A DNA stretch of 64,000 nucleotides from Zygnema cylindricum. Lineage: Eukaryota; Streptophyta; Zygnematophyceae; Zygnematales; Zygnemataceae. Position 1 is the stretch's first letter, and every line of letters begins with the position of its first letter. The position numbers and the translations under genes are program-made. The DNA lies in contig JBBHKE010003420.1 of the NCBI GenBank assembly GCA_037447655.1, forward strand, positions 62,001 through 126,000, read 5' to 3'. A model generated the notes under the pieces. It was not told where the DNA came from, did not search any database, and saw only the letters and a program-made list of their open reading frames with translations. Shown piece after piece: positions 3,248 through 64,000 of the stretch.

Positions 3248-6200
3248 ATGGCGAATTCATCTATTAGGATTTTGGTCGTTTTGTGGAGTTCAATGTTGTT
3301 GGCTTCTATGGCTTCGTTGGGTTTGGCTGAATCGGAAAATGTCGAAATGGAAAACGCACCTTTCGGCAGTATTGGTACGTTTTTCTCGTAAGGAATTATT
3401 CATCATTGTTCTTTTACATTCTATTCTTTATGTATTTTAATGTTTTACTTCTGCGGCGGTATAAAACAGTAGTTTTGTATGGACTGTTGGAATAAAGTAT
3501 TACGTTACCGTCAATAGCTTAGCAATTTTTTTAACAAATGTCAAGAGCATTATTTTTTTAGCCCTCATATTTTATCATTTTATTTGTTTTTTTTTTTCCA
3601 TGAAATTTAACTATAACCACTGATCCACTTTCTCCGTTTATGACAAAGGAACCTTAACATTGCCATGTCTGTTTCCATGTGTCCCATATTCCCGATGGTA
3701 TTCCCCATTTCAACTTTCTTCTTTCAGATCCGTCAGGCGCAACTGGGCGACATCTTCTCGAAGACGGCCGTGGTAAAACCAATCTTTCTTTAATCTACAA
3801 AACGGAACAACAGGAATCACATATCATAATTGTAGCCATAATTACTGTGGATTTTTTTCCCGTGTCGAAAGGAACTTATTTTACCCCTAATTCTCCTCTT
3901 CCTCTTCCTCTTCTCCCCTGATCTCGCCCTCCTCCCTCACCCTCCCTTCTCTCTCTCCTCGCCTTCTCTCCTTGCTCTCGCTCCCGCACTCCCCTCTCCC
4001 CATATACCTATTCCATCTTCTCCTTTTATTCCATTTTTCTTGCCCCCACTCTCTTCCTCTCTCTCCCCCTCTCTCTCCCTGTCCGTGTCCCTCTTATTCC
4101 GTCCTTTCTCTCTCCTCCTCGCTCTCCTCACCTTCTTTCCTCACTCTCGCTCTCACTCTCCTCGCACTCGCTCTCATAACTCTCCCTCTCCTCGCTCACG
4201 CTCTCCTCGCTCTCACTCTCCTTGCTCTTGATCTCTTGCTCTCGCTGTTCTCTTCTCTCTCCCTCGCTGTCTCTTTATTTCCCTCTCTCTCCGTATCTCG
4301 CTCTTTCTCTCTATCCTTACTCTCTCTTCACTATCTCATATACATGAACACAGACACACATGTCTCTTCTCTCTCTTGTCTCTATATCAATCGCCTTCTC
4401 TTCCTCTACCTTTCCATCTGTTCCACATCCCTCCCTTTCCCAAGGTCCCTCCCTCTTCCATCTCCCCATGTCACCCACTCCCCCACTCTCCTCTCTCGCT
4501 CTCCCTGTTTACCTCCTCTTCCCTTCACCTAATTGCCAAAATGTTCCAATGTTACCCCATCTTCCCCTTGCTTGCCCCACTTCTCCTTTTCCCCTTCCCT
4601 TCCTCTCTCCGTCTCTGTTTCTCCTACATGGCCGTCCCCCCCCTCCCCTCCCGCTCCCTCCCCATCTTCCTCATCTCCAATCTCTCTCCATCTCCCACTC
4701 TCCCCCTCTCTTCTTCCCCTTTTACTTTCTTATCCTCCCTCTACTCCCTCCCTCTCTCTCCCTCGCTCTCCCTCTCTCTGCCCCTCTCTCACCTCTCCCC
4801 CTCTTTGCCAACTCCTTCCCCCCCTCTCCCCCCGCCTCTCTCCACCTCCTCTCCCTTACCCCTCCCTTGTATGCGCATGTCTGTTCTGTGCCCAGCTCTT
4901 AAGAGACGTGGCTTCGTTCCCCAATGCCCGACGGCCAAGCCCTGGCTTTGGAATAACTCTTGCTACCGCCGCTGTCCGACGTGCGTCAAGGTCGGCAGCC
5001 CCTTATACGGCCGAAATCGTGAGAATAAGCTTCTTCGAGTTTTTTGGGGTGGATATTGGGGAGGGTTTTGGGGCTATAGGAATTTTTTGACGGTTTCGTA
5101 AAGGTATTTGGGAGTTTCGGGGTGAATATTGAGCGTTCCTTAGGAGGATTTTGGGAGGATTGGGGAGGTATTTGTGAAGCATTTTGGGAAAAAAATGTTC
5201 TTCTTGTTGTTCTTGTTGTTGTTTTCTTGGTGGTTCCATACGGAGTATGCAATTTAATTAATGTGGAAAATATGAGCCGCGGAAAATCAATTTGTTAACG
5301 GGAAAACGGAAGCAGAAAAGGAGAATATAAGCAAATACACTTTTTTACATAGTTTTTTTTTGGATTTTATTCTTGAAGTTTGGATCGAAATGTTTCGATG
5401 ATTTCAAATGGCCTTGTTGATTTTGTTACTTTTCATTTTTATTTCTATGTTCTTTTAGCACTAGTTTGTCTTTCCAAGACGGAAAACAAAGGAGATGGAC
5501 ACGAAAGCTCTTTAAGATGACGTCTCTCTCTCTAACGACACTTTTTCCTCTCTCCTTTTTCACAATTATCTCTTTTCTTCCTTCTCTATCTCCCTCTTTC
5601 CTTATCCCCCGACATTCCCCTCTCCCTCCTTCCTCTTCCTCTCCCTCTCTGTCCCCATCCCTCTCGCCCTCCCCCTCACTCCCCTCCTCTCTCTCCCTTT
5701 CCTTTCCTTTCCTCTTCCCCTCGTCTTCCCCCACACCCCCTCTCCACCACTACCACCCCCGTCCCCTCACCTCTTCCTCCTCCCTCCTCCCTCACCCCCC
5801 CTTCACCCCCTCCTCCCCTCCACCTCTCTCCCCTTCCTTTCTCCACTCCCTCTCTTCTCTCCCTCTCGTCCCCTCTCCCTCTCTCCCTCCCAATTTCCGT
5901 CACCCTGTCTCCATCTCCCTGCCACATCTCTCTCTCCCATTCCCACTCTCTTTCAATCTATCTCTTATCTCTTCTTTCTATCCCTCCCTCCCAATCTCGC
6001 TTTCTCCTCTTCCTCCCTTTTCCAATGTTCTTCTCCCTATCACCACCGGCCCCTTGTTACCTCTGCCTCTCTCCCCTTCTTTCCCTCTACCTCTCTCCCC
6101 GTCTCTGCCTCTCCCCCTCCGTTAACTTTCCTCCCCCTCCCTCTCACTCCCTTTCCATTCCCCACTCCCTACCTCCCCGTGCCTCCCCTTTTCTTCGTGT

Positions 6201-7579
6201 GTGCATATCTCCTCTGTGCTTAGGTCGTCGCGTTCGTCCCCGCTGCCCCGTGAACGAACCGTACCTCGCATTCAACTCCTGCCACCGCCGCTGTCCGAGG
6301 TGCACCTACAACGCATTCGGCTCCAGACCCGGCCGTAATAGACCTCGTAAGAATAAGCTACTGGAAGGCTTTTGGAGCTGATTTTCGGGAGGGTTCTGGG
6401 GAGGATTTTGAGGAGGATTTTGGGAGGGTTATTGGGAATTTTCTTGAGGGTTTGGCGGAGATTATTGCGAGTTCGGGAGGGGTTTCGGAGATTTCTTAGG
6501 AGGCTTTTGGGGATATTTTTCAGAGGTTTGGGGAGGTTTGGGAAGGTGATTGCAAAGGTTTTTCGGGAATTTTTTTTTGGAGGTTCGGGTGGCACTTTTC
6601 TTGGTTGTTTTGAGAGTTTGCTCACGATTCGCTTTGGAAATTGTTGTTTTTTCTTTGCCAGTGGTTGGCGGCTGGTTTTTGGAGGATTTTGGGGAGTGAA
6701 TTGTGTTTTTGGGGGTCCTTTTTTGGAGCCTGCGTCTGATTTAATGTGGAAAATATGAGCCTCCGAAAAACGATTTGTTCTTAAAATTGAAAGAAGAAAA
6801 ATTGCATAAAAGCGAATTGACTTAACAGTTTTTGTTTGGATTTTAATTCTTAATATTTATTTTCAATTTTGTTGATAGCAGAACATTCTCAACTAAATAG
6901 CGTTTTGGTATTTTTCATTTTTTTTTTCTTTCATTAATACTATTTTATGTGTTTCCAGGACGCAAAACGATGGAGGACAGGGAAACTCTTGAAGACGTGG
7001 AAGGTCTCTCACCCTCACTCTCTCCCTTTCCCTCTTCAATTTTGCCCTCCCTCTACCTGTATAACTTAAATATCTTCTACATTGCCTCGCAACTCTTCTT
7101 CCACCACCTTCCTCTACTTTATCTTACCCTCGCTCGACCTCTCTCCATTTAGCTTATACGGGTCCTATTTCCTAATATTTTGTACCTTTATGATTAAGTT
7201 CCTGTATTGCAATATGTGTATAATTTTTCTTTTCTAAAAACGGTATTTGATTCCTATTTTGTACTTCCAGCACGGAAAACAATTGAGGATAGGGAAATGC
7301 TTGAAGACGCAGACAGGGAAATACTCGAAGAAGGAGGTAACTCTCTCTTTTTTCCTTTTTTTATTCCTCTCTCTCTCCCTTATCGCACTTTTATCTGTCT
7401 CTCTCCCACTCCCTCGCTCTTCCCCTCCGTTGTTTCGCTCTTTCTCCGACCCCCTCTCTTTCTCTTTCCCCGTCTGCCTCTCTCTCCAGTGTCCCCCTCT
7501 CTACCCATTACTCTATCCCCCCTTCATCCCTCAATCCCCTCCATCCGGCCTCCGTCCTCACTTTGCCTTTTCCTCTCTC

Positions 7580-7629: not shown

Positions 7630-7866
7630 TCTTGTTTTACCTCCCTCTTTACTCCCCTACTTTCCTACCACCCTCACTACCCCTCTCCCTCCCTCTCCAT
7701 CTCTCCTTTATTATCCATGTCGTATTTGTTAAGACGTGATCGTCGACAAACATTTTGGGAGGCTTGTGTTGCGTGTGTTTTTTGTTTTTTCGATATTATC
7801 TCGAGTCCTAATCTATTTTTGTCTTTCGCTTTTTATTTTTTTTCTCGTGTCTATAATGCAGAATGA
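3248..7866 (+). CDS. Locus A: secreted micro-exon Cys-module precursor, apparently intact
   Basis: Spliced gene with exons 3248-3374, 3728-3772, 4896-5018, 6224-6346, 6959-7003, 7271-7336 and 7862 onward; total 534 nt, 177 residues plus stop. Every exon is bounded by AG/GT and every internal exon is phase 1-1. Exon 1 encodes a signal peptide (MANSSIRILVVLWSSML...GLAE) with cleavage likely after GLA and an acidic tail. Exon 2 encodes DPSGATGRHLLEDGR. Exons 3 and 4 each encode one basic four-Cys module, C-x11-C-x3-C-x2-C (CPTAKPWLWNNSC and CPVNEPYLAFNSC, ending RRCP-C). Exons 5 and 6 encode acidic repeats (RKTMEDRETLEDVE; DREMLEDA/DREILEEG). The last exon gives only AA-TGA, completing a split Glu codon and then the stop. 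ATG in CCACCATGG context sets the start. I do not recognise the family. Secretion is well supported; an antimicrobial or signalling peptide role is inference. Expression is untested. Confidence 0.7.
3375..3727 (+). other. Locus A intron 1
   Basis: Begins GTACGTTTTTCT and ends TTCTTCTTTCAG. The same start (GTACRTTTTTT) and end recur in loci B, D and E, so the boundary of the signal-peptide exon is supported by four copies. No other feature seen. Confidence 0.7.
3885..4885 (+). repeat. Kilobase polypyrimidine tract in locus A intron 2
   Basis: About 1 kb of almost uninterrupted C and T (CTCTCC, CCCTCT, CTCGCT units) directly upstream of the first Cys exon acceptor (TGTGCCCAG). It is far longer than a normal polypyrimidine tract. 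Equivalent tracts occupy the same position in loci B and C and, on the opposite strand, in D. Long Ser/Leu/Pro open frames here are a composition effect, not genes. Confidence 0.85.
5019..5240 (+). repeat. G/T-rich tract after the first Cys exon of locus A
   Basis: The intron begins GTGAGAATAAGCTTCTTCGAG and continues with repeated GGGAGG, TTTTGGGG and GGGGAGG words. The same kind of tract follows every Cys exon in loci A-D (for example 6350-6600, 14835-15010, 15609-15790, 27190-27450). The words are complementary to the CCTCCC-rich tract on the other side of the Cys exon. Confidence 0.7.
5479..5521 (+). pseudogene. Degenerate acidic micro-exon in locus A
   Basis: TTTCCAAGACGGAAAACAA aligns with the acidic micro-exons (TTTCCAG|GACGGAAAAC) but the acceptor CCAG has become CCAA. 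Downstream, ACGAAAGCTCTTTAAGATGACG corresponds to the GAAACTCTTGAAGACG part. The copy is out of frame and is best read as a dead exon that is skipped. It marks an ancestral order of Cys exon, acidic exon, Cys exon. Confidence 0.55.
5525..6205 (+). repeat. Polypyrimidine tract before the second Cys exon of locus A
   Basis: About 680 bp of CT-rich sequence ending at the acceptor CTGTGCTTAG at 6223. It has the same character as 3885-4885. Confidence 0.8.
7345..7715 (+). repeat. CT-rich intron segment with a (TC)n run, locus A last intron
   Basis: The intron after exon 7271-7336 is CT-rich and includes an uninterrupted TC dinucleotide run near 7575-7625. It ends in TATAATGCAG before the stop-only exon. 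Confidence 0.7.
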
Positions 7867-12686: not shown

Positions 12687-13444
12687 GCCGGTTACATGTT
12701 TTAGATTATATCATTGTGGTGGTGGATAGAGGTAGAATATAGTAAAGGCAAGATCCAAAGACCACATTTGAAAGAAAATTGTTGACGTTTTAGCTCTAAA
12801 TTTGATTGGTTAAAAGGAAAGCAACCATGGCAAATTCATCTGTTAGGATTTCGGTCGTTTTGTGGAGTTCAATGTTGTTGGCTTCTATGGCTTTGTTGGG
12901 TTTGGCTGAATCGGAAAATGTCGAAATGGAAAACGCACTTTCGGGCAGTTTTGGTACGTTTTTTTCTTAAGTAGTTGTTTATTAATGCTCTTTTACCATC
13001 TATTCTTTATGTTTTTTATGTTTTACTTCTGTGGTGGAATAAAAAAGAGTTTTTGTATGGACAATTGGAATTTTGTAATATATTCAAAAAACGATTGCAT
13101 TATTACTTTAGCCTTCGTATTCTTTTTTTGTTTATTTTTTTCCATGAAATTTGACTATGACCACTGATTCACTTTTACGTTTGTGACAAAGGAACCTTAA
13201 CATTGCACTTTTACGTTTGTGACAAAGGAACCTTAACATTGCAGTGTCTGTTTTCATGACTATTTTTTTTACATTTTTAGCATTGCCAAATCTGTTTCCC
13301 AATGTTATTCTATTTTTCATCTTTCCTCTTCCAGATCCGTTAGACGCAACTGGGCGACATATTCTCCAAGACGGCCATGGTAAAATTCTTTCTTTAACCT
13401 ACAAAATGGAACAAAAGAAATCACAATTATTATATAATAATACA

Positions 13445-14690: not shown

Positions 14691-16639
14691 CGCATGTCTG
14701 TTCTGTGCCCAGCTCTTAAGAGACGTGGCTTCGTTCCCCAATGCCCGACGGCGGAGCCCTGGCTTTGGAATAACTCGTGCTACCACCGCTGTCCGACGTG
14801 CGTCAAGTCGGCAGCCTCTTATACGGCCAAAATCGTGAGAATAAGTTACTTCGAGCTTTTTGGGGCGGATTTTGTGGATGGTTTTGGTGCTATAGGATTT
14901 TTTTGCGGGTGTGGGAAAGGTAGTTAGGAGTTGCGGGGAGACTTTCGTGCGTTCCTTGGGAGGATTTGGGGAGGTTTGGGAAGGTATTTGCGAAGACTAT
15001 TGGGAAATTTTGATGTGGATGTTTTTGGGGCACTTTTTGTAGGATTAATTTTGTGTTCTTGGAGGTTCCATTCGAAGTCTGAAACTGATTTAATATGGAT
15101 AACATAAGCCTATGAAAATCGGTTTGTGAAGGAGAAGATGGAAAAAGAAAAATAAATTATGACCGAAAAGTCAACACCCTGTGTTTGGATTTTATTCTTA
15201 AATTTTAGATCGAATGTTACAATGATTTCAAAGGCATTTTTTGTTTTGTTACTTCTTATTTTTTTTTTTGTAATTTTGTTTAACAATAGTTTGTGTTTTG
15301 AACAATAGTTTTTAATTCTCTTCCCCTCTTCTCCTCTCCATCGCTTTCTCGCTGTCCCTCTCCTAATCACCCCCGGTCCCTCCCTCCCTCTGCCTCTCTC
15401 GCTTTCTTTCCCCCGCCCTTTCCCTTCCCCTCTCCCTATCTCTCCCTCCCCGTTCTTCCCCTTTTCCTCGTGTGTGCATGTCTCCTCTATGCTTAGCTCG
15501 AGTTCGTCCCCGCTGCCCCGTGAACGAATCGTACCTCGCGTTCAACTCCTGCCACCGCCGCTGTCCGAGGTGCACCTACAACGCATTCGGCTTGCGGTAA
15601 TAGACCTCGTAAGAATCAGCTTCTAGGAGCTTTTGGAGCTGATTTCGGGGAGGGTTTTGAGGAGGTTTTTGGGAGGGTTATTCGGAAATTTTTTGAGGGT
15701 TTGGCGGAGGTTATTGCAAGTTCAGGGGAGGCTTTGGGGAATTCTTAGGAGGTTTTTGGGGAGATTTTTGGAGGTTTGGGGATTTGAGTGCTATTGTTTT
15801 TTTAGAGTTTTATGTTGGAGGTTTAGGTGGCAGTTTTCTTGATTGTTTGGAGAGTTTGCCCACGATTCGCTTTGGGAATTGTTGTTTTATCTTTGCCAGT
15901 GGTTGCCAGTTGGTTTTTGGAGGATTTTGGAGAGTGAATTGTGTTTTGGGGGTCTTTTTTTGGAGCCTGCATCTGATTTTCAAAATATGAGCCTCCGAAA
16001 ATCGATTTGTTATTAAAAATGGAAGAAGAAAAATTGAATAAAAGCGAATTGACTTAACGGTTTTTGTTTGGATATTTAATTATTGAAGTTTGAATCAGAA
16101 TGTTACGATGATTCAAATGTTTATTTTCAAATTTTATTGAAAGCAAAACATTCTCAACTAAATACCGTTTTGGTATTTTTCATTTTTATTTCATTTTTTC
16201 ATTAATATTATTTTATGTGATTCCAGGACGGAAAACGATGGAGGACAGGGAAACTCTTCGAGACGTCGAAGGTTCTCATCCTCACTCTCTCCCTCTTCAC
16301 TTTCAATCTCCTCTACCTCTTCCTCTACCTGTATAACTAATTTATCTCCCACAAATTTCTCCACACTCCTCTCTCGCAACTCCTCTTCCTCCACCTTCCT
16401 CCCCTCTCTCCTCCCCTCTCTCGACCTCTCTCCATTTGGCTTATACGGATCCTATTTCCTAATATTTTTTACCTTTATGATTAACTTCCTGTATTGCAAT
16501 ATGTGTATATTTTTCCTTTTGTAAAACGGTAATTGACTCCTATTTTTTTTTGAATTTCCAGCACGAAAAACAATTCAGGATAGGGAAATACTTGAGGACG
16601 AAGATAGGGAAATACTTGAAGATGTAGACAGGGAAATAC

Positions 16640-16905
16640 TCGAAGAAGGAGGTAACTTTTTTTTTTATTATTTATTTATCTATCTCTCTATTTCCTCTCT
16701 CTCTCCTTTATCGCACTTTTCACTGTCTGTCTCCCACTTCCTCGTTCTTCCCCCCCGTCTTTTCGCTTTTTCGAAAAAGGAGGTAACTCTCTCTTTTATT
16801 TATTTATTTATCTATCACTCTATTTCCTCTCTCCCTCCTTTATCGCACTTTTCTATGTCTGTCTCCCACTTCCTCGTTCTTCCCCCCCGTCTTTTCGCTT
16901 TTTCT
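16640..16905 (+). repeat. Tandem duplication covering the donor of the acidic exon, locus B
   Basis: A unit of about 130 bp is repeated. Each copy starts with GAARAAGGAGGTAACT (exon end and donor), runs through TATTTATTTATC and CACTTCCTCGTTCTTCCCCC, and ends at CTTTTCGCTTTTTC. The second copy provides a decoy donor at about 16780. Confidence 0.7.
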
Positions 16906-18469
16906 CCCTCCCCTCTCTTTCTCTTTCCCCATCTGTCTCCCTCCCTCTCCAGTGTCCCGCTCTCAACCCATAACTCTCTCCCCCTTTCTTCCATCCCTCA
17001 ATCCCCCTCCATCCGGCCCCCGTCCTCTTTTTTCCTCTCTCTCTCATTGTCTCTCTTTCCCTTTTGTTCTACCTCCCTCTCTACTCCCCTTACTTTCTTA
17101 CCACCCTCACTCCCTCTCTCCCTCCCTCTCAATCTGTCCTTTATTATCCATGTCGTATTTGCTAAGACGCGATTCCCGATAAATATGTTCGGAGGCTTGT
17201 GTTGCTTGTGTTTTTTTTGTTTTTTTTCGATATTATCTCAATTCCTAATCTATTTTTTTCCTTTCGCTTTTTTTTTTTTTTTCTCGTGTCTATGATGCAG
17301 AATGAGTTCTTCACGAAAAGAACACAATTCAAAGTGTGGTTCTTGGATAAAAACCTCCAGAAAAATGTTTGAAGGAAGTTTGCCTTTCTTAGACAAGTTT
17401 TGTTTCTTTTTGTAAAGAAATTAGAAACGAGATGTTCACCGGTGAAACCGAGATCGTTTTCCGGTACAACACCTCCAATTTTGCGGATTTAGGACTTTGG
17501 GGTTTTAACGTGGGCATAAATTTCTAGATTTTTTGACATTAGAGGAGTGGGGGGCGGTGAAAGAGAGAAGGAGAGGGGTAGAAAAGGGTTTTTTTTCTTT
17601 TTTGTTTGCTCGGACAGTTCTTGTTTTGACTTTCTAGCATTTGGACTATAAATTCAGATGACTATTAGTCAGTCTTTTTTGTTTTTGAGGGGTGGTTTTC
17701 TTCAAAACTTCTCCAATTTTGTTACTTAAAAAACAACACTATGTTTTTTTTTGTTTTGAAACATTGTTTTTTTTGTTTTCAACCCTCATTTGGAAATGAT
17801 GAAGGATTGACGAATTTTAGATTGAAGTATGGTATTTAATGTTTTTCCAAATTTTTTAAATGAACTGTGCAATTTTACTTTTTTTTACCCTATCAAATGT
17901 TTGGCGTTTGTTTCTTTCTTGATGGTTCTGTCATTTTTATTTTTTTGTTTGTTGGCTTTTTTATAGCATTGTTCTTTTAATTTGGGCTTATTAGGTATTT
18001 AAGATTCAACTAAGAAACAAAAAACGTAAAGGTGAAGATAAAGTATTAAATTATACCGTCCTACTCTTTTTTTTCTCGTCTTCATTGTGAAAGTTCGCGT
18101 CCACATTCATTTTTGTAGATTAGACTTCAATTTTCAGATGAACAATTGTGCAAGAAAAATGTATTGAGAAAAGCTTCGAGTAATGTCAGTGTTTAGCCGA
18201 TGAGAAAAATATGTTATGGATGGATTTTTGAGATTTGAGTTGTTAAACCATCCAATCTTTATATTTAGACTGTCTGCCTAATACATTTATCTATTGTATC
18301 TTACAATCTAATGTATTTAGCTATGTATTATTTATCCATACATCTATTTAAACTAATATAATTATCTAATTGCCAAATATTCCCATTCGGGTGGAAGGCT
18401 TGGCGTGAAACGTCAGTGTGTCTAGTCCGGTGTACTTTGAGGCAATGATTCGCATTTTGATGTCTTTGC

Positions 18470-19168: not shown

Positions 19169-19545
19169 GCCGATAATGTGTTTTAGATATTATCATTCTT
19201 GTGGTGGAGAGAGGTAGAAAATTTTAAAGGCAAGATACAAAAACCACATTCGAAAGAACCTCTCTTTATCTCTTTCCCTCGCTTACTCTATCTATTCCTC
19301 CCTCAATATCTCCTCACCTTCTCCCATCTCTCCTCTCTATATCTCCTCTATAGCCAATTAATTGTAACTGGTTGTTGTGAACCAGTTTTTGGTTTCAACT
19401 ATTTGGTGTCTTCATAGAACAGAAAACAATGGCAGAGGACAAGAAAATTTTCATAGATGCGAGAGGTCTCTCTCTCCCACCCTCTCCCTCTCCATCTCTC
19501 CTCTCTCCCTCTCCTCTCTTTCATTTCACCGACTGATTCCCATAC

Positions 19546-25375: not shown

Positions 25376-25806
25376 TACGTTTGTGCGCATGTCTCTTTTG
25401 TGGGCAGTCTTTCGGAGACGTTAAGCCCCTGCCCGCTGCCCGTCGTCGTCCCGCCCCTGGCTTTGGCGAAACGAATGCCACCGACGATGTCCGAATTGAC
25501 TCGTAGAGACAAACCCAGCAAAAATAGTGAAGATAAGTTTTTGGGAGATTTTGGGGAGCTTTGGGGAGTTTTTCAGGAGCGTTTGGGAGCTTTTTGGGGC
25601 GGATTTCGGGGAGGGTTATGGGATTTTAGGAATTTTTTCAGGGTTCCTAAAAGTTTATTGGGAGTTCTGGGGAGATTATTTAGCGTTGTGAAGAGGATTT
25701 TGGGAGGTTTGGGGAGGTGTTTGTGAAGATTCTTGGGATATTTTTTGTGGATTATCTTGGGGCTCTTTTTCGATGATTAATTTTTTATTTCATGGTGGTT
25801 CCGTTT

Positions 25807-26069
<263 letters not shown>

Positions 26070-26139
26070 ACTAATTAGTGTTTCCGAGAAGGAAAACAAT
26101 GGAGGTGGACAAAGAAAAACTTGAAGACGCAAGTGGACT

Positions 26140-26995: not shown

Positions 26996-28592
26996 GCATG
27001 TCTCCTCTATGCCCAGGTCGCAAATCCCGCTGCCCGAGGAGAGAACCGTACCTCGCGTTTAACTCGTGCCACCGCCAATGTCCTAGGTGCACCTACGCCG
27101 GGCCCAAATACGGCGGTAAACCTCGTAAGGATTTAGGCTTGCGAGGCGGGTTTTGGGGAAAAATACGGCGGTAGCGGCGGTGGTAGACCTCGTAAGAATT
27201 TACGGTTTTGGGAGATTTTTGGAGTCGATTTCGGGGAGGCTTTTGGGAAGGGTTTTGGGGAGGGTTTCGAGGAGAGAGGGTTTTGGCGAGAGTTTTCTGG
27301 AGGGTTTTGGGGAGGGTTATTGGGAAATTTTTTGAGGGTTTGGCGGAGGTTATTGTGGGTTTTGGGGAGGTTTTGGAGAATTCTTGAGAGGTTTTTGGGG
27401 AGAGTACGTGAAATTTTTGAGGAGGTATTTATGAAGGTTAATCGGGAGGTATTTTCGGGAGGTTCGGGGGCGTTTTTCTTGTGGGTTTAGAGATTTCGCC
27501 TATGATTAGCGATGGAAATTGTTGTTGGATTTTCTTTTCAGTGGTTGGTCGGTTGATTTTCGGAGGATTTTGGCGAGTGATTTGTGTTTTTGAGGGTTCT
27601 TTTTGGAGCCTGCATCTAATTTAATGTGGAAAATATGAGCCTCCGAAAGCGATTTGTTCTAAAAAATGGAAGAAGAAAAAAGAGAATGAAGCAAGTTAAA
27701 TGAACAGTTTTTGTTTGGATTTTTTTTTTGAGGTTTGAATCAGAATGTTACGATGATTTCAAAAAAATATTTTCAATCTTATTAAGTCCAAAATTTCCTC
27801 AATTCTATTGTGCAATTTCGGTACTTTTCCTTATATTTCTCTTTTTGATTAACGCTATTTTTTTGTTTCCAGGACGGATGGAGGACAGGGAAACTCTTGA
27901 AGATGTCGGAGGTTTCTCGCCTCTCTCCCCTCTCTCACTTTTTCAGCCTGTATAACAAATTTATATCCCACCAATTTCTCCACACTCCTCTCTTGCAAAT
28001 TTTCCTCCACCTTCCTGTGCTCTCTCTTCCCCTCTCTCCACCTCTCTCCATCTGGCTAATACGGGTCCTATTTCCTAATATTTTGTAGCTTTAAGTTCTT
28101 GTATTGCTTCCTTTTTATTTTTGTAAAACGGTATGTGATTCCTATTATATTTTGTATTTCCAGCACGGGAAACAATGGAGGATAGGGAAACACTTGAAGA
28201 CGCAGACAGGGAAATACTTGAAGAGAGAGGTAACTCACTTCATTTTTCCTTTTTCTCTCTCTCCATTTCCTCTCTCTCCTCCCTCTCACTTTTTTCTCTC
28301 TCTATCCCACTCCCTCGTTATTCCCCCCTGCTGTTTCGCTCTCTCTCCCTCTCACCCTTTTGTTCTCGTTCCCCATCTACCTCCCTCTCCCATGTAGCTT
28401 CCTTTACCCATATCTCTCTTCCCCTCTCCTCCATCTTTCCGTCCCCTCCATCCGGCGCTCGCAAACATTATGGGAGGCCTGTGTTGCTTGCGTGTTTTTT
28501 TTACATATATATTCTCAATCTGTTTTAATATAATATATTTTTCCTTCCGTTTTTATTTTATTTTGCTTTCTCGTGTTTATAATGCAGAATAA

Positions 28593-47630: not shown

Positions 47631-47639
47631 AGGTTCCTT

Positions 47640-48410: not shown

Positions 48411-48504
48411 ACTCAAGGTCCTTCTATCTTTAGTGTGTTATCCTAATTCACATGCCTACTCTCCTAACGGTCCAGGCATGCTTCAAAATTATATCACTAG
48501 AAAG

Positions 48505-48585
48505 TTAGAGGAGCCTACTGCCACTGGAGAGTTAGAGGAGCCTACTGCCACTGGAGAGTTAGAGGAGCCTACTGCCACAGAACGG
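48505..48585 (+). repeat. 27-bp coding minisatellite (GELEEPTAT, three copies)
   Basis: TTAGAGGAGCCTACTGCCAC units encode a nine-residue acidic repeat between the methyltransferase and protease/RT regions of the Gypsy relic. The frame is maintained. Confidence 0.8.
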
Positions 48586-49093
48586 GAGCATCTTATGCAT
48601 TTTACTTTAAGCATTATTGGGGCCCCCGACCTTACGGATAGACAGCGTTGCACTTTGTTGGCTAGGGTCATGGATCCACAATCTTTATCATTTGTTTTAG
48701 GTCTTTGCCTTACAGCTAGTCGCTATGCACAGAATCACCCCGTGCAATGAGCTGGGGGGGGAATACGGCTGCACGTTCACGTCATGTTTCCTCTCGCACC
48801 TCTCATAGTCTCAAGGGAAATCCATTTCAGATTTTTCTTTTCCCTTCTTGCATACCTTCGATTAAGGACATCTTTATCTACGATTTCCTCAACCCCAGTC
48901 ATAGGTCTTGGGGAATTCCGGCCTATACAACTGTTCAATCCACAGTTCCACCGTTTCACGGTCCTACACCACATTGGACAGCTGCATTTCTGACGCGTCG
49001 CTGGCACCACTAGGTGAATTGCCTTCAACAAGCTCAATATCGTACGAGTTAGGCAAATCTCTCATTGCCGATGAACAATTGGCGTTTTCTTAA

Positions 49094-50620: not shown

Positions 50621-50799
50621 CTCACACATTGTTTAGCTTCCATACTGAATTCTCGTATGGTTGCGGATCCGTGGCGAGACGGGCCCCTCATCCTATTTTT
50701 ATCTTCTCAAACCTTTCAATCGGGATCCACCGGTGATGAGGAGGACCGAGTAAAAAACGGGCCAAAACTTATCTATGGCTCGGCGTATCTTTATTTCGG

Positions 50800-51545
50800 T
50801 TGTTGGCTGACGACAGTCATCGCCATGTCCCCCAACCAACTGAGCGCTTTTCTTTAATTGAGCAAGTACTTACCGAGCTCAGACATTACGAGACCAAGCG
50901 CACATTAAGCCTTGTACAGGCACAATATTGGTGGTCCGGAATGGAGGCAGATGTGGAGGCCATTCTCCACAAATGCGCCACATGTGATCGTTTACGCACC
51001 TCTTTCTCTAATGGGCAAGTGACCCTCTAGCCATTCCCCATTAAGGGATTGTTTTATTGATAGGTGTGGATCTTGCCGGCCTGTTTCCCATCTCTCGAAA
51101 GGGGGAAACATTACATCATGATAATGATTGAAAATTTCAACAAATGGGTAGAGGTGGTCGCTCTTCCCCATAAGACTGCTAAATTGACCACCGCTCCTTT
51201 CAAAGAGCACGTCCTCATGCGTTATGGAGCTCCTGAGGAGGTTCTTACGGACGAAGGATGGAGTTCCAAGGGGAATTTCAAAAGATGCTGGATGAAGCTT
51301 TATTTGATCATCACCGGACAAATCGTGATCACCCTCAAGCCGACGGCTTGGCAGAACGTGTTGTCCTGACTTTTAAGCGGGCTCTTCAAAAGCATTTTTT
51401 AGAGAAACACATCTCTGTCTGGGACGAATCATTGCGCTACATCACCATGGGCTACAAGATGTCTGTTCAAGCTAGTTTGACGAATTTCAGCCAATATTAC
51501 ATTCTTTTTGGTCGCGCTCCCTTGCTCGGTCGGAATATTTAGAGA
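50800..51545 (+). pseudogene. Gypsy integrase region
   Basis: YWWSGMEADVEAILHKCATCDR is the second half of the zinc-binding domain. After a stop come DLAGLFPISRKG-like residues, HYIMIMIENFNKWVEVVALP, MRYGAPEEVLTDEG, a frameshift near 51255, EFQKMLDEALFDHHRT, HPQADGLAERVVLTFKRAL and LRYITMGYKMSVQASL. The order matches Ty3/Gypsy integrases. Confidence 0.8.
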
Positions 51546-51560
51546 GCGGCCAGTTTACCT

Positions 51561-52139
51561 TTGCCTCTAATGTGTGACACCATATTTTTGGAAGAACTAA
51601 CTCGTCGCGCTTTGCTTTTCGCTCGTGATATGCCCATGGCTTTTGATAATTTGGAGATTGCCCAACATCAGGATACGTTTTGGTTTACTACCACGCAAAA
51701 TGGCAGTTACAAGCCTCAAAATAAATCTTATCGGGTCAGAGATTACGTGTACCTCCGAAGACAATCTTTCGACACTTTGGACACGGATGTTTCACCACAC
51801 ATTCTTTGTGTGGTGGAAATGGATGTTAATGGGTTGTTGGGTTTGCAAGGTGCAGATACAAGGACAATTCGAGAGCATTCAAAGAATTGTGCAACTTGTT
51901 ATTTACCGGATTTGTCACAGGATATGGATCTGATGAGGATGCCAATCATCGAGGCCACGGAATGTACCATCTGCGGGCGAGCAGACGGCGAGACCTCCAT
52001 TCTCCTCTGTGACCATTACAACCAGGGGTTCTATATAGAGTGCCTAGTTCCCCCATTGACAACTGTGCCAGCTGGCTATTGGTTTTGCCACGGGTGCTGT
52101 GAATTGCCAGCGGTGTTGTCCAGCTCCTCTGCAGCCTAA
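51561..52139 (+). pseudogene. Gypsy C-terminal region with PHD finger
   Basis: Open for 192 codons. It continues the integrase tail (NKSYRVRDYVYLRRQSF) and then carries a PHD finger: ECTICGRADGETSILLCD, GFYIECLVPPLTTVPAG, YWFCHGCC. The fourth zinc ligand reads Tyr (CDHY) and the His before the fifth Cys-pair ligand reads Tyr (GFYIEC), so zinc binding is probably impaired. A PHD at this place suggests targeting to histone marks; a chromodomain is not seen. Confidence 0.75.
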
Positions 52140-52920
52140 GGAGCTTGGGTGGGGAATTATTGTGCTCATATCACTTTAGGGAGTATTCTTCCCTTTTCTT
52201 TCTTTTGTCATATTTACTCTCCTTCCTTCTTATTGTGTATATATTTTTGTTGGTCTATGTTCGTACAGTACCATTTTCGTTTGTATATGCGTTTGCAAGC
52301 ATGACTTCGCTGGTTGTAATGCATGTTCGCTCTTGCTTGCCTTCATGCACGACATCAATTTCTATCCTACCTTGTGATTTATCTAGTGTCTACCCTGTGA
52401 TTACCTGAGTTTAAGTCCAATCTGTTGGTGGCTGCCGGGGATCCCTCCAATCTCTCAAATTGTGGACCAAAGTCTTCACTATCTTCCTATCCTCTCTATG
52501 TATCCTAAGTCAATAAATCTACCTACTCCTATATCCTATCTATCTATATATCCTTTATCGTATCTATCTATCTATTCCACATCCTATCTCTATGTATCTA
52601 TCGATCTGATTACATATCTAACTTTCTATCTTTGATAATCTATGTATCTGCATATCTATCTAATGTTTACTTATCTATTTAATTTGTGTAAATATCCCTC
52701 TCTCTATACAATTATCCAATGTCAATTTATCTAATTATATATCTAATTATTTACCTCATTGTCTATTTAAGTTCTTATCTCATTTTCAATCTTATGGTTA
52801 TTTTTATCTAGTTTTCTAAATCTAATTTTTCTATCTAATCTATCGATCTAATCTCTACAAACCTATTTAAGCCATGCACGCACACATTTATTGCCTAATT
52901 ACTAACTCATTGGATCCATT
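52140..52920. other. Possible Gypsy 3' end, then TATC-type microsatellite
   Basis: TTGGGTGGGGAA at about 52146-52157 could be a polypurine tract, but the following sequence does not match the LTR at 38457. From 52500 to 52870 there are interrupted TATC/CTATCTA repeats like those at 9100-9440 and 29600-29700, which mark resumption of the family 3' flank. Confidence 0.5.
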
Positions 52921-56066: not shown

Positions 56067-59000
56067 TCATTCTGTATTACAAAGACGAGAAAACCCAAAA
56101 AAAAAAAGAAACAGGTTAAAATGCTATTGAAAAAAAAAATGCAAACCTCCCAATACATAGATAAATAATGAGAGATGGGAAGAGATTGGGAGAGAGGGAG
56201 GTAAAGAGATAGATAGAGAGAGAGTGAGAAGAGGAGGCAGGAATCAGGGGAGAGGGCATCGTGGGAGAGATGTTGATAGAGGCGGGAGAGGGGGAGGGAG
56301 GGGGAGGGGGAAAGGAAAGAGTCCGGATCAGAACCAAGGACAGAGGAGACAGAGAAAGAGAAAAGTCAGGATCGTCTCGGACTTCGGATCCGTCCGATCA
56401 GAAAATCAAAAAAGATACAACAACCCTGGAACAAAATTTAAAAGGCATAAAAGCTTAGGAAATACGTTTTGTATAATTCAGATAGAAAGAGGTGGAGAGA
56501 GGGGGAGAGAGAGGAAGGGGATTTGCCAGGGAGAGTGGGAAGAAATTGAGGGGAGATAAATTAGTTACACAGGCGGGGGAGGAAGAGTGAAAAGGGGAGA
56601 GAGCTAGTGAGGGAGAGAGACTTTCGTCGTCTTCAAGAGTTTCTCTGTCGTCCATCGTTCTCCGTCCTGGAAACACATGAAATAGTATTTACCAAAAAGA
56701 TAAAAAAAATAAAAAGAAACAAAACAGTACAACACTATTTATTTGTAAACATTTTGCTTTCGATGAAGTTCAATATCTATATTTGAAATCATCGTAGCAT
56801 CTCGATTCAAACTTTAAGAATGAAATGCAAACAAACTGTTCATTCAGTTTTCCTTGATTCTGTTCCCTTCCATTTTTCCCAACAAATAGATTTTCAAAAC
56901 ATCATAACCCCCAAAAACATGAAATAAATTCCCCAAAAAAGCTCCCAAAAAAAAGTCGACCACCTCTGACAAAAAAAAACAGCAGCAACTTCGATAGCGA
57001 ATCGTGGGCAAACTCCCAAGACCTTTCTAACACTCCCCAAAATAACTGCCCCAAAACCTCAAAAAATACTCCCGAATAACCTTCGGAAACCTCCCCAAAA
57101 CTCCCAAAAAATCAGCCATTCTCGAAACCTCCCGAAAACCCGCTCTACAAACGCTTTCCCATATAAAGCATAATCTCACCAGATTCACGCCTACCAGATC
57201 TAGTATTAGTGTCGGCGCGGTCACATGTATGACATCCAAAACTCTCTCCGATACCCTCTCCGAAACCCTCCCCCAAACCCTCCCCAAAACCCTCACCCCA
57301 AACCCTCCCCGAAACTCTCCCCGAAACCCGCTGAACTAACCTCCCGCATAAAACATATCCTCACCAGATCCCCGCCTACCAGATCCGCTGTCGCTGTTGA
57401 CGCGTTGGCAAGTCGGGCATGCGGAGGAGCAACTTCCGGCCATGCGGTAGGGGCGGCGCGATGGGCAGCGGCGGGATCGCTCTGGGCACAGAGGAGACGC
57501 GCGCACACAGGGGATGGAGAGAGGGAGAGGGGGACAGAAGGGGGAACACAGGTGGGCACAGAGGAGAGGAGGGGAGAGGAAACAGGGGAGAGGGGGAGAG
57601 GGAATGAGCGAGAGAGACTTCCAGCATATTCACAAGTTTTAATCAGATGCAAAACCACAAAAACAACGAACAAAACAAAAAAAAAATCAACAATTTCCAC
57701 GGGAATTGTGGACAAACTCCCAAAACTTCCTAGATTTCCCGAAAACTTGTGCCTCAAAAAAAAAAAAAAAAAACCTCGCCAATAACTTTCGCATAGTCCT
57801 CCAAAAACCTCCCAAAAACTCCCGATAACTCCCGATATCCTCCTCCGAAACCTCAAAAACTTCCGAAAACCCCTTCCCAACACCCTTCACAAAACCATCC
57901 CCAAAAGCCGCCGCAAAACATCCCAAAAGCTTATCCTCACCAACTCTGGTATTGTCGGTGCGTTCGCAAGTCGGACAGCGGCGGAAGCACTGATTTTGCG
58001 AAAGGTAGGGCTGATCCGATGGGCAGCGGGCAGTGGTCCGAAGGGCTGGGCTCAGAGAAATATGCGAATATAAGGGAGAGTAAAGGGGAGGGAGGTGGAG
58101 GGCGAAGGGGAGCGAGAGCGGGTGAGAGGGAGAAGGGGAGAGAATTCAGGGATGGCTAAAAGGGTAAAAGGGGTAAACGGGGGGGGGGGGGGAGGGGGAG
58201 AGGGGGAGAGAGGGAGAGGGCAAGACTGGGATACGGGGAGACGAGGAGACGTGGAGAGGGTGAGTGTGGGAGAGGGGGAGAGAGAGAGAGGAGGAAAGAG
58301 GGAAGAGGGGGAGATGGGGGGAGAAGGGAGGCGAAAAAAAGTGAGATTGAGAGGAGAGAGTGGAGAGAGAGGAGAGGAAGAGGGAGAGTGCGAGAAGGAG
58401 AGAGGTATACCTCTCCCGTCTTCAAGAATAATCCTGTCCTCCTCCAATGTTTTCCGTCCTGGCAACACATAAAATATGTTGAACAAAAAACGGGTTTACA
58501 AGTAAATACAGATTGATAGAGGGGAGAAGCAACGAGAAAACGGGAGAAATAGAGAGTAGAGAGGGGAGAAAGGAAGGATGGACGGAAGGAGGGAGAAAAG
58601 TTGGGAAGGAAAAGGGGAAAGAGGGAGGGTTGGATGGGAAGGAGGGAGAGACGAGGGGGAGAGAGACAGTAAAAAGGGATAAAATGAAAAAAAAAGCAAA
58701 AAACACAGACAAATTCGTGTTTTATACTCACAATGATTCACGTTCCAATGTGGTGTATTCAAGTTGTTAAAAAAATTGTAGTTGGATTTTGGATTAAGAG
58801 GGGTCGGTTTGCTCTTTGGTTGAACAAGGGATAAAAAAAAAATCAAACAAATTCGTTAAGTAAAACACAAGACAAATTCGTGTCTTTATAGTTGTTAATG
58901 GCCGCTGGTCCACAATTCATGACAGCGCCCACTAATTCATGATTATTCACACTCGTTTATTTCAATCTACAAATGATATCAATCGACAATTTCATAGTAA

Positions 59001-59862
59001 CATATACCATTTAACAAATTATTGAAATTGATTTTATAATGTGTGCTTTTATATTTTTGCTTGATGTTCTAAGAATTTCAAAGGAGTTGTGACTCAAAAG
59101 GAGTCAAAAGGGAATGAAGGCTGGACGAAGTTCCTTTCTAATAGGGGATTTTTTTTGCAATAATTGAGGATTCAAGTGTGATAATTGCAAATCATTTTGT
59201 TCTTTTTTTCTTTGTTGTGAGAAGGATTGGGTATTACCACGTTCGTCGTTGAGAAGATTCTGCCCAGTTGCGCCTAAGAAATCCAAAAGAGGAAAGATGG
59301 AGAAAAGAATACGGAACATGGAACATGGAACACATAGAAATAGAAAGAGCAATGTTAAGGTTTTTAAACAAATAAAACACAGAAAGACGTGTTAACTGCA
59401 GAAAAAGAGCCTTGTTCATTTTGTTGTAACAAAAATTCAAGTGGGACCAATGGCCCTTGTCCAATTTCATATATTAAAAATAAAAAAGATAATTACGAGG
59501 GCTGAAGAAATAATATTCTTTACATTTGTTAAAAAATTGTCCAGCTATTACATTAACGTTCTTACAAAATTCTAACAGTCCATGTAAAACCGATCCACCA
59601 CGGAACATTAAATTCTCACCAATCATGAGTATAGCATGATACCCAATGGACGCAAAGGCACAGCAGTCCATAAACAACAAAATGAATAGAATGGAAAAAC
59701 AATAATTAATAGCTCCTTACAAAAAAACGTACCGATATCGCCGAAAAGTTCATTTTTCATTTCCACACTTTCTAATTCAGCCAAACCCAACGGAGCCATA
59801 GAAGCCAACAACATTGAGCTCCAGAAAACGGCCGAAAGAGTAAAAACAGATAAATTCGCCAT
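56067..59862 (-). CDS. Locus D: secreted micro-exon Cys-module precursor, apparently intact
   Basis: Exons on the minus strand: 59862-59733 (signal peptide MANLSVFTLSAVFWSSML...GLAE), 59273-59238 (or from 59282 with the ancestral acceptor), 58458-58411 (GRKTLEEDRIILEDGR), 58045-57941 (Cys module CPSDQPYLSQNQCFRRCPTC), 57481-57365 (Cys module CPSRRPYRMAGSCSSACPTC), 56666-56622 (RRTMDDRETLEDDE) and 56071 down to the stop at 56069-56067. Internal exons keep phase 1-1; total 486 or 495 nt, 161 or 164 residues. The usual acceptor of exon 2 (TTTCAG) reads TTTTGG here; a new TTCTTAG nine bases further in keeps the frame. Between the last Cys exon and the acidic exon a partial Cys-exon copy remains at about 57180-57235. 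No premature stop. Function unknown; secretion likely. Confidence 0.65.
56160..56600 (-). repeat. Pyrimidine-rich intron segment of locus D (last intron)
   Basis: GAGAGAGGGAG-rich on the plus strand, so CT-rich in the transcript. It holds GGATCCGTCCGATCAGAAAA-type unique sequence at 56340-56460 where a second acidic exon would be expected; none is readable. Confidence 0.6.
57175..57240 (-). pseudogene. Partial Cys-exon relic in locus D
   Basis: The reverse complement reads ...TGTGACCGCGCCGACACTAA...AGATCTGGTAGGCGTGAATCTG followed by GTGAGATT. It aligns with the end of exon 57481-57365, including the donor. The 5' part with the first three Cys codons is missing. Confidence 0.5.
58080..58400 (-). 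repeat. Polypyrimidine tract before the first Cys exon of locus D
   Basis: Purine-only stretches such as GGGAGAGGGGGAGAGAGGG and a G12 run near 58180 on the plus strand. The transcript is CT-rich, as in loci A-C. A further tract at 58510-58690 lies in the preceding intron. Confidence 0.8.
58700..59230 (-). other. Locus D intron 2, AT-rich part
   Basis: AT-rich. Contains a duplicated ACACA(A)GACAAATTCGTGT motif at about 58700 and 58868. A similar AT-rich block (AATTGATATCATTTTTGG, CTATTAATTACTGTGA) occurs in locus E near 62830-62930. Confidence 0.45.
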
Positions 59863-61875: not shown

Positions 61876-61979
61876 CATGAGACGCTTCTAAGCCGGTCAA
61901 CTCTCCGTTGACTTTTATCCAAGAAAATCAGTGGAAAGGTCTTTGACGTTTCCCACATTATTTCTTGTGTATTTTAAGG

Positions 61980-61986
61980 TATAAAA
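61980..61986 (+). promoter_or_regulatory. TATA box of locus E
   Basis: TTAAGGTATAAAACGAAG, about 148 bp before the start codon, with the family leader GATATCATTGTGGTGGCGGAGAGAGGTAG downstream. Confidence 0.7.
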
Positions 61987-62127
61987 CGAAGAAAAAATAT
62001 TTTAGATGATATCATTGTGGTGGCGGAGAGAGGTAGCAAAAAGCGAAGGCAAGATTGAAGATCACATTTGAAAGGAAATTGTTGACGTTTTAAGAATTAA
62101 ATTTTGTTGGTGAATATGAAAGCAAGT

Positions 62128-64000
62128 ATGGCCAATATGTCTGTATTCAAGATTTCGGTCGTTTTGTGGAGTTCAATGTTGTTGGCTTCTATGGCTTCGT
62201 TGGGTTTGGCTGAACCTGAAAATATGGAATTCCAAAATGCACTTTCCAATGATATCGGTACATTTTTTGTAAGCGGTACTTTTCTGTTTATTTTTATTTT
62301 TTTCTATTCTTTATGTTGTCTATTTATTGTCGTGCCTTTTCTTGTACTAGGTATCATGGTCGACTCATTAGTGGTGAGATTTTTGATGTTCTACTTCCAT
62401 GGTGGCATAGAAAAGTTATATATGGACTGTTGGAATTTGGTAACATTTATATATTCTGTTTCCAACTTTCCTCTTTCAGATCCATTAGGCGCAACTGGGC
62501 GACATCTTCTCGAAGACAGCCGTAGTAAAACCCAATGCTTCTCACAACTATAAAAAAGAGCGGAAAGACTCGCAATTATCATGCTCAAAACCAGAACTAG
62601 TGTGGATGTTTTCCCTTAACAGAAAGGAACTTTCTCCTCTTTTTTTCTCTCCCATTTCTTTTTTTATACTTCTCTTTTATTCATTTTTTCCCCTTTTCAC
62701 ATTTCTTCTCTTTTTCCTCTCGAGTTTTTAAATCACGTTTCTTCCAATTTTATTAGGAAAAGCATAAATGCAAAAGTCTATATTATAGCAACATCTATTT
62801 AACAATTGATCTTCCAAAAATTATACATTATTATGAAGTTGTCGATTGATATCATTTTTGGTTTAATTGCTATTAATTACTGTGAAAAATCTTTATTTCA
62901 AGATTATGTGATTGCGGAATTAACGGCTATTAATCAATGTGGGTATCAGATCTCCTCCTAATCCAATCGACGCGCCTCCAAGAGTTGTCCGGTGGGCTGG
63001 GGCTGTCGACGCGGTGATAGACCTGGTCCGAATCAGCTTCTGGGAGCTTTGTGGGCGGGTATTGTGGAGCTTTTTGGGAAGGATTTCAGGGAGATATTTG
63101 GGGCGGGTTTGGGAGCTTTTTAGGAAGGGTTTAAATGAAGTTATTTCTGGAGGGTTATGGGGTGGATTTGTGAGTTTCGAGTAGATTTTTAGTGCTTAAT
63201 GAATTTTTGGGATCTCTTGCGAAATTTTTGCGAGGTTTCTATGATTTTTGTGGAATTTTTCATGGAGGTTTTTGGAAGTTCCTTTTTGGCGAGTTTTTGG
63301 AAGTTTGCCCACAATTAGGGGTGGAAATTGTTGTTGATCTTTTTTCGTCGGAAATTATCGGTTGCTTTAACGAAAAAAAAAAAGGTAAATAAATTTTGTG
63401 TTTTTAAAGGTTATTTTTGGAGTCTGAACTAGATTAAATGTAGAAAATATGAGCACCCGAATATTGGTTTGTTGGAAAAAAAAGGAACAAGAAGAAGTTC
63501 AAACATATATTTTAAATTTCATAGAAAGAAAAATATTTCAAAATAAATAGCAATAAGTTGTTTTAGTTACTTTTTGTTTCTGTTTCTCTTTTTGAATTAA
63601 CATCATTTCATTTTTCCAGGACGAAGGACGATGGAGGAGGACAGCGAAACTCTTGAAGACGGAGGTCTCTCTCCCTCTCTCCCTCCCACACTTCTTTTCG
63701 CCGTTCCTCCGTAGATTTCCCTGTATTTAAAACTATTCAAACTATCCCTAATTTGTCCACAACCCTCTTGCAACTCCATTTCCCCCCCCCCAAACTCACA
63801 AACTTCCTCACTCTCCACCTCTCTAAATCTGGTTTGTCCAGGTCAGGTTTGGTTTAATCTGGTGTCAGATTTTGTACATTTATAATTCAACTACTATTTC
63901 ATAACATTGTTATTATAATTTTTTGCGTGTTAATCGGTATTTGATTCATCTTGCTTCTTGTGTTTCCAGGACGAAAAACAATGGAGGAGGATAGGGAAAT
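62128..64000 (+). CDS. Locus E: fifth family member, 3' end outside the window
   Basis: Exons seen: 62128-62257 (signal peptide MANMSVFKISVVLWSSML...GLAE), 62480-62524 (DPLGATGRHLLEDSR, ending in A rather than G before the donor), 63620-63664 (RRTMEEDSETLEDG) and a further acidic exon starting at 63970 (RKTMEEDRE...) that runs off the window. An extra in-frame ATG at 62116 could lengthen the protein by four residues. A Cys-exon relic lies at about 62950-63020: splice-like borders and similarity to the last Cys exon of locus D remain, but the first Cys codon region reads TAA in the homologous frame. The CT-rich tract is short (62640-62730). It may encode only acidic modules, or Cys modules may follow outside the window. 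Confidence 0.6.
62950..63020 (+). pseudogene. Cys-exon relic in locus E
   Basis: GATCTCCTCCTAATCCAATCGACG aligns with GATCCCGCCGCTGCCCATCG of locus D, and TGATAGACCTGGTCCGAATCAGC matches the donor end of Cys exons (ATAGACCTCGTAAGAATCAGC). The conserved G/T-rich intron start follows. The GT donor is weakened to GTCCGA. Confidence 0.5.

Follow-up and report, generated by a model that had tools for sequence, protein, structure and literature searches.

A probable family of modular small-exon genes for secreted precursors with basic Cys-rich and acidic modules in the green alga Zygnema cylindricum

Can exons of a few dozen nucleotides, set in kilobase CT-rich introns, be the parts of genuine genes, and if so, what would such genes make? 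The question is raised by 64,000 nt of the genome of Zygnema cylindricum (hereafter the window), which correspond to positions 62001-126000 of the 200,264-bp contig JBBHKE010003420.1 (C2560) in the 352.8-Mb assembly GCA_037447655.1 with its 2,689 contigs. The window holds five loci of one design, of which A, B, C and E lie on the plus and D on the minus strand. An earlier reading of the window from its letters alone (the sequence-only reading) had claimed a cluster of five loci; all five were recovered, and A and D are open throughout. We consider it probable that they belong to a lineage-specific, tandemly amplified gene family encoding secreted precursors, built of basic Cys-rich and acidic modules, that act outside the cell.

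The design can be followed in locus A. All six junctions (3374/3728, 3772/4896, 5018/6224, 6346/6959, 7003/7271 and 7336/7862) are GT..AG, and exons of 127, 45, 123, 123, 45 and 66 nt join into a single frame of 177 aa with a hydrophobic segment at its N-terminus, to which the terminal exon supplies two bases and the stop codon (AA+TGA). All internal exons begin at codon position 2 and have lengths that are multiples of three. The coordinates proposed for this locus by the sequence-only reading proved exact:

3248..3374, plus strand: signal-peptide exon of locus A, open
3728..3772, plus strand: 45-nt exon of locus A (DPSGATGRHLLEDGR)
4896..5018, plus strand: Cys exon 1 of locus A, four Cys, pI 10.2
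6224..6346, plus strand: Cys exon 2 of locus A, four Cys, pI 11.4
6959..7003, plus strand: acidic micro-exon 1 of locus A, donor GTCTCT
7271..7336, plus strand: acidic exon 2 of locus A, 66 nt
7862..7866, plus strand: terminal exon of locus A, AA + TGA, followed by the 3' untranslated region

Typical lengths are 42-48 nt for acidic exons and, among Cys exons that end at a GT, 105-147 nt. Given these sizes, the term micro-exon is a loose one; the description as a modular family for secreted products is supported.

Upstream of the first exons, a TATA box lies 141-163 nt 5' of the ATG in five of 11 loci by the patterns used, for example at window positions 3105-3111. Other loci have, by eye, near matches (TATAAAT or ACAAAAG) at a similar place, and the conserved region reaches further upstream than the TATA box.

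Several tests bear on whether the exons are coding. The signal-peptide exon is open in 11 of 11 copies and has a dN/dS of 0.44 (0.32-0.69), compared with 0.74 (0.47-1.17) and 0.81 (0.47-1.45) in the shifted frames; for the 45-nt exon (11 of 12 copies, D left out) the value is 0.51 (0.34-0.87), compared with 0.70 and 1.26. Acidic exons gave 0.24 (0.12-0.45) for 44 copies selected partly by motif, 0.26 (0.13-0.51) for 38 copies taken without a residue filter and, after removal of the first four codons, 0.32 (0.14-0.78), with 1.32 (0.68-2.76) and 0.65 (0.20-2.25) in the shifted frames. Residue 1 is Arg in 37 of the 38 unfiltered copies, and among the 44 motif-selected copies Glu5 is kept in 42 and Leu13 in 43. 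The latter set derives from 62 matches above 28 bits, of which 50 passed an intactness test (a few doubtfully) and six of these 50 were left out. Judged from its substitution pattern, the acidic micro-exon is under purifying selection.

A frame-blind measure points the same way. Measured from acceptor to donor, 39 of 41 acidic exons have a length divisible by three, the modal length being 48 nt (28 of 41), and one of the 41 has an in-frame stop; this test left out 16 matches that ended short of the acceptor, one without an acceptor and four without a donor by the script's rule, and the 38 unfiltered copies are those of the 41 that measure 42, 45 or 48 nt. A comparison of A with B shows 93.4% identity in exons vs 77.0% in introns, whose 51 gaps have no preference for multiples of three (11/25/15). 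Continuous coding across the CT tracts was rejected on account of these gaps and of the 39 acidic exons that end at a GT with a length divisible by three.

CT-rich DNA easily yields open frames, and the CT-rich sequence here has no stop codon in any frame (long S/L/P frames), which would favour the view that the exons are artefacts of chance. This view is already refuted by the results and retains hardly any probability, as the exons recur in many paralogous copies, have their lowest dN/dS in one frame only and are conserved above the introns. No one of the coding tests is decisive; it is their agreement that persuades us. The preserved frame, from which the sequence-only reading had argued for real genes, is now backed by selection on three exon types, by exon lengths and by the higher conservation of exons than introns.

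The clustered modular family likewise extends beyond the window, with six more loci on the same contig and two elsewhere. We count 13 loci: G1, G2, G3, A, B, C, D, E, G9, G10 and G11, which span about 38 kb to 189 kb of the window's contig, and one each on contigs C693 and C1969. Searching the assembly with the signal-peptide exon returned 11 copies (E 2.6e-59 to 4.5e-17), far more than chance would give, and no match to this exon in G1; a signal-peptide-like match at C2560:159753 (E 0.083) was not counted. One acidic exon used as a DNA query matched at least 41 places, 37 on the family contig, three on C1969 and one on C76. The last was not counted as a locus, being an isolated acidic-exon match with no other convincing family exons in the 10 kb examined.

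Since the modules share one phase and lengths divisible by three, a copied, lost or skipped exon leaves the rest of the gene in frame. The longest model, G10, joins a signal peptide, the 45-nt exon, five Cys modules and ten acidic modules in one open model; within it, a segment of 988 bp that carries one Cys exon is present twice at 99.8% identity, which shows that the copying of modules is recent. In addition, G1 and G2 possess a third recurrent exon type of 63 nt (CLLLRNEKAKALCIIAAGRR) in the same phase. A terminal exon of two bases plus stop, as first proposed, is present in all five window loci and in seven of the 11 contig loci; in G1 and G2 the stop comes three codons later, in G3 eleven codons later, and in G10 the frame is open to the end of the stretch inspected. 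Gene models were made for seven of the 13 loci and were all given the ending AATGA, which G2, G10 and G11 lack in exactly this form.

What the DNA itself establishes, then, are the borders and phase of the exons, the size of the family, the selection that acts on signal-peptide and acidic exons, and the alternation of charge. In the models, the signal peptide is followed by a short conserved segment (GATGRHLLEDGR). Cys modules have the spacing C-x12/13-C-x3-C-x2..-C and are strongly basic, with a pI of 9.0-11.7 in the modelled modules and a mean net charge of +8.8 (13 modules); an alignment of 18 Cys exons gives the rough consensus R-C-P-x3-[PS]-[YFW]-x3/4-C-x3-C-P-x(0-18)-C, to which there are exceptions. 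Acidic modules of 14-16 residues (GRETMEEDRETLEDAG) follow the pattern (G)RETMEEDRETLEDAG, with a pI of mostly 4.1-5.0 and a mean charge of -3.1 (45 modules). Behind a signal peptide judged from the sequence, A and D have two Cys modules each, G9 three and G10 five, and the charge of what follows the signal peptide is near neutral (A +6, D +1, G9 +2, G10 +3). Acidic modules lie between Cys modules in G9, and mostly so in G10, whereas A and D have their two Cys modules side by side, with acidic modules after or around the pair. An AlphaFold2 prediction for the second Cys exon of A with six window sequences was too poor to use (mean pLDDT 64, pTM 0.27).

Each gene would thus give rise to a secreted precursor consisting of signal peptide, short conserved segment, and Cys and acidic modules, each module corresponding to a single exon with its start at codon position 2 and, in those with a clear end, a length divisible by three. 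Cleavage at the Arg that opens nearly every acidic module would release basic Cys-rich peptides, which the acidic modules might neutralise or chaperone until release. Once free, the peptides would act outside the cell, most likely in microbial defence and next in cell-cell signalling. Splicing as drawn, secretion, cleavage and peptide activity are all predictions from the gene models.

The same charge pattern could serve a protein that is never cleaved. An extracellular-matrix or mucilage protein with charge blocks, cross-linked or phase-separated through its basic Cys modules and acidic helices, would account for the alternating blocks, the near-neutral total in A, D, G9 and G10, the signal-peptide-like start, and an acidic module that is conserved beyond the strict need of a discarded spacer. 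The Cys-module-bearing models, however, are small (161-405 aa), contain at most 22 Cys and include no known matrix domain, and we regard a matrix protein as unlikely.

The introns are unusual in composition. Among 506 stretches of 100 nt over loci A-C, 14% reach at least 85% C+T on the coding strand. By the same measure there are none among 718 in the first 36 kb of the contig and none among 498 in its part rich in transposable elements (TE), where 0.6% do so on the other strand. In D and G10, which lie on the minus strand, the asymmetry is reversed (11.5% and 15.7%). CT-rich introns as a genome-wide trait were rejected, as they were seen neither in five light-harvesting introns of the same genome (C+T 0.57-0.64) nor in these two non-family parts of the contig. 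C+T averages 0.85 upstream of Cys exons and 0.85 downstream of acidic exons, and G-rich sequence (G at least 0.28) lies downstream of 16 of 18 Cys exons, the exceptions being G11 and H1969; mean G downstream is 0.38 after Cys exons vs 0.05 after acidic exons. On their acceptor side acidic exons are T-rich (TTTTGTGTTTCCAG), and a CT tract comes directly after their donor.

Not all copies are intact. Loci B and C, which the sequence-only reading had called damaged, are so: B by the loss of 1 nt in Cys exon 1 and by stop codons close to the end of Cys exon 2, and C by a decayed Cys exon 1 and an acidic exon with damaged acceptor and frame. Locus B comprises the following exons:

12827..12953, plus strand: signal-peptide exon of locus B, open
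13335..13379, plus strand: 45-nt exon of locus B
14713..14834, plus strand: Cys exon 1 of locus B, damaged (1-nt loss)
15497..15609, plus strand: Cys exon 2 of locus B, damaged (stop codons near its end)
16227..16271, plus strand: acidic micro-exon 1 of locus B
16562..16651, plus strand: acidic exon 2 of locus B, 90 nt, with an internal 24-nt repeat
17301..17305, plus strand: terminal exon of locus B, AA+TGA

Matches to the signal-peptide exon and the 45-nt exon were looked for at locus C, and neither was found. Its exons are:

19418..19465, plus strand: orphan acidic exon, 48 nt, in the upstream part of locus C; open on visual inspection, but did not pass the scripted residue test
25405..25530, plus strand: Cys exon 1 of locus C, decayed
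26085..26135, plus strand: acidic exon of locus C, acceptor and frame damaged
27017..27124, plus strand: Cys exon 2 of locus C, open
27873..27911, plus strand: acidic micro-exon of locus C, 39 nt
28164..28229, plus strand: acidic exon of locus C, 66 nt
28588..28592, plus strand: terminal exon of locus C, AA+TAA

Between the orphan exon and Cys exon 1 of locus C lies an insertion-like stretch (19645-24217) with similar ends of about 80 bp (77% identical) and long frames inside; the one frame searched had no Pfam match. A TA dinucleotide array of 250 bp occupies window positions 25810-26062 within the same locus.

In locus D, the second exon measures 36 instead of 45 nt, with an acceptor 9 nt further on, and the frame is kept:

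59733..59862, minus strand: signal-peptide exon of locus D
59238..59273, minus strand: second exon of locus D, 36 nt, shifted acceptor
58411..58458, minus strand: acidic micro-exon 1 of locus D
57941..58045, minus strand: Cys exon 1 of locus D
57365..57481, minus strand: Cys exon 2 of locus D, 117 nt (102 nt with an inner GT)
56622..56666, minus strand: acidic micro-exon 2 of locus D
56067..56071, minus strand: terminal exon of locus D, AA+TGA

Locus E is cut by the window edge, as had been noted, but it is not merely cut, since its Cys exon has also decayed and only the tail aligns; just outside the window, a 3.1-kb assembly gap follows at contig position 126191:

62128..62257, plus strand: signal-peptide exon of locus E
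62480..62524, plus strand: 45-nt exon of locus E
63003..63053, plus strand: Cys exon of locus E, decayed, only its tail aligns
63620..63664, plus strand: acidic micro-exon 1 of locus E
63970..64000, plus strand: acidic micro-exon 2 of locus E, truncated at the window edge (full length on the contig 48 nt)

A number of observations weigh against a family of functional secreted precursors. In B, C, E, G1, G3 and H693, roughly half of the loci, the Cys exon is broken, lost or Cys-poor, and Cys exons are nearly neutral, with a dN/dS of 0.71 (0.49-1.06) for 14 copies (B1, B2, G3 and G10d omitted) and of 0.86 among three copies in G10. They thereby approach the dN/dS close to 1 that the sequence-only reading had named as evidence against itself, and which is found for none of the signal-peptide, 45-nt and acidic exons. 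Coding-frame and shifted-frame codon-bootstrap intervals overlap in each of these exon types, and the copies, being related, are not independent. Three of the seven models are clearly negative (G2 -15, G11 -12, E -10), contrary to simple neutralisation. Outside the window it is not always certain where a Cys exon ends: in G9 the end adopted for the third one lacks a GT, and in-frame GTs at 108, 120, 162, 165 and 198 nt, among others, leave the G9 model uncertain. Finally, the donor after the acidic exon is GTCTCT in 31 of 44 cases, unlike the light-harvesting introns, whose donors are GTGACT or GTGAGA.

Damage and neutrality in the Cys exons are also what would be expected if the loci were mostly pseudogenes, that is, a once-functional family that decayed and was carried along by tandem duplication and TE activity. 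Cys exons are broken or lost in B, C, E, G3 and H693, and the upper bound of their dN/dS exceeds 1. Set against this, the Cys and acidic modules of A, D and G10 are open, as are all 11 signal-peptide exons, and nearly all acidic exons keep lengths divisible by three, which makes general decay a distinctly improbable explanation. The Cys dN/dS is 0.72 for G1/G2 and 0.16-0.43 among the A, B and C copies, with wide intervals that reach 0.8-1.3. The looseness of the Cys exons may reflect either diversification or relaxed constraint.

The symmetric exons and their flanks further invite the proposal that the loci are diversity generators akin to the micro-exon genes (MEGs) of schistosomes: exons would be skipped in many combinations, one locus would yield many secreted variants, and weak GTCTCT donors, CT tracts and the G-rich tracts after Cys exons would set the choice of modules. 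In this reading GTCTCT would be a weak donor rescued by CU-binding proteins, the CT tracts would be PTB/TIA-type sites, and the G runs would act as enhancers. The same phase in all modules, the prevalent GTCTCT donors and the C+T and G content of the flanks are in line with this proposal, as is the finding that flank-to-flank duplexes of 13 of the 18 Cys exons are more stable than those at all 200 random positions. The remaining five are within the random range, however, and only two of the 18 flank pairs beat approximate dinucleotide shuffles (z below -2); the duplex figure for acidic exons covers the first 18 of 46. As 16 of the 18 pairs are no better than these shuffles, the complementarity is compositional, and sequence-specific CU:G pairing was discarded as unsupported. 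We rate the diversity generator as possible but somewhat doubtful; it can coexist with the secreted-precursor reading.

A bolder reading would be a combinatorial precursor system in which all peptides and spacers are frame-neutral exons, and competing CU:G pairing and CU-binding proteins choose the cationic modules of each precursor; it appears rather unlikely. Part of this reading is an intron grammar specific to each exon type, with CT before and G-rich sequence after a Cys exon, and a T-rich acceptor, GTCTCT donor and CT tract around an acidic one. If the combinatorial system were real, one locus could yield many peptide cocktails.

Known relatives were not detected for the favoured secreted precursors. 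A phmmer search with the locus A protein against 5.8 billion proteins gave 94 candidates but no hit at E<=10. A profile built from five models likewise had no hit at E<=10 among the 7,997 candidates from the same collection that shared most words. PDB searches returned no homologue (best E about 0.2), and in Pfam and NCBIfam searches of the models no known domain or matrix domain was accepted. A Fer4 match in G10 (27.5 bits, above the 21.1 cut-off) was dismissed as an artefact of Cys spacing, as no stretch passes alone and the best stretch has 11 residues. The nearest Pfam pattern is that of furin-like or growth-factor-receptor Cys repeats (PF00757, PF15913), below curated cut-offs (G9 protein 26.4 bits vs 26.8; G10 24.0 vs 28). 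The family spacing C-P-x4-Y/F-x4..-C-x3-C-P resembles part of this repeat, but only part of the profile aligns, the family modules are strongly Arg-rich, and A and D have no match.

The following comparisons draw on excerpts of the cited papers. The Ib-AMP precursor of Impatiens balsamina contains a signal peptide and several basic four-Cys domains of the motif CCX8CX3C, separated by acidic spacers of 16-35 residues (PMC10136942). Models A, D, G9 and G10 share the signal peptide followed by several basic four-Cys domains. They differ in Cys spacing, with no CCX8CX3C in the 18-exon alignment, in that each module is a single symmetric exon, and in their clustered genes with CT-rich introns of kilobase length; a sequence relation was not found. 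A role in defence or signalling may be suggested. Thionin precursors also pair a basic Cys-rich peptide with an acidic prodomain that is said to neutralise it (PMC10136942), with a single basic and a single C-terminal acidic domain where the family modules are repeated.

With regard to exon structure, MEGs of Schistosoma mansoni encode secreted products from exons of 6-81 bp, most of 15 bp (PMC10526429). They have in common with the family short exons of mostly multiples of three and long introns, and are hard to annotate automatically, but family exons are mostly longer than this typical size, and the proteins and the kingdom are others. Aphid bicycle genes, which encode putative, fast-evolving effectors, have many small internal exons, nearly all beginning at codon position 2 (PMC9168663). 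The family shares this exon pattern and the fast protein evolution; it differs in combining Cys and acidic modules, in its unrelated organism and in the absence of a paired CYC motif from the Cys alignment as judged by eye, no motif search having been made. The microexons treated in the excerpts of the Zygnema genome paper do not form a family of this sort; they are conserved and measure about 1-15 bp (PMC11096116).

Each element of the design hence has a known parallel, and for the combination no report was found in full-text searches of open-licence papers for related plant or algal families. This agrees with the sequence-only reading, which knew of no such plant family, as does the lack of a homologue in the protein searches. 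The word plant is best narrowed here, as the light-harvesting genes point to a green genome that is probably that of a streptophyte alga. From the excerpts, Cys-rich precursors with acidic spacers are known from a flowering plant, and secreted families with small exons from flatworms and aphids (PMC10136942, PMC10526429, PMC9168663). Here the two designs would be joined in a green alga, where the birth, loss and recent duplication of modules are directly readable. The family offers a system for testing how exon-specific intron composition acts in the splicing of small exons, and represents a kind of gene family that is invisible to sequence homology, given the lack of a match among 5.8 billion proteins. 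If the peptides were antimicrobial or sexual signals, they would constitute a new family.

Other elements of the window include a PIF/Harbinger-type pair, in which an open DDE_Tnp_4 transposase frame of 447 aa (39957-41300, plus strand) adjoins a Myb/SANT-like protein frame of 328 aa (43179-44165, minus strand). Copia-like retroelement remnants with integrase core pieces lie at 31500-36100 (the Copia label was assigned by eye), and Gypsy-like pieces (RT_RNaseH) at 47500-52200, where a PHD-finger frame also occurs (51543-52139). To the eye, the frame at 47565-47933 looks like cytosine-methyltransferase motif I; Pfam and PDB searches with it gave no match. A tRNA-Asp(GTC) is located at window positions 495-567 (Rfam 49.9 bits). 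In the assembly as a whole, searches for the RuBisCO large subunit gave no match and for dynein heavy chain a single one. A full-length Lhcb reaches no more than 81% identity among the best 120 of 4,557 matches, and 77% with an entry labelled Mesen1, presumably Mesotaenium; the Lhcb and dynein results fit a zygnematophyte. The 88 chlorophyll a/b-binding matches that were recorded indicate a green genome, with dense light-harvesting gene arrays on both strands of contigs C519, C2590 and C1116.

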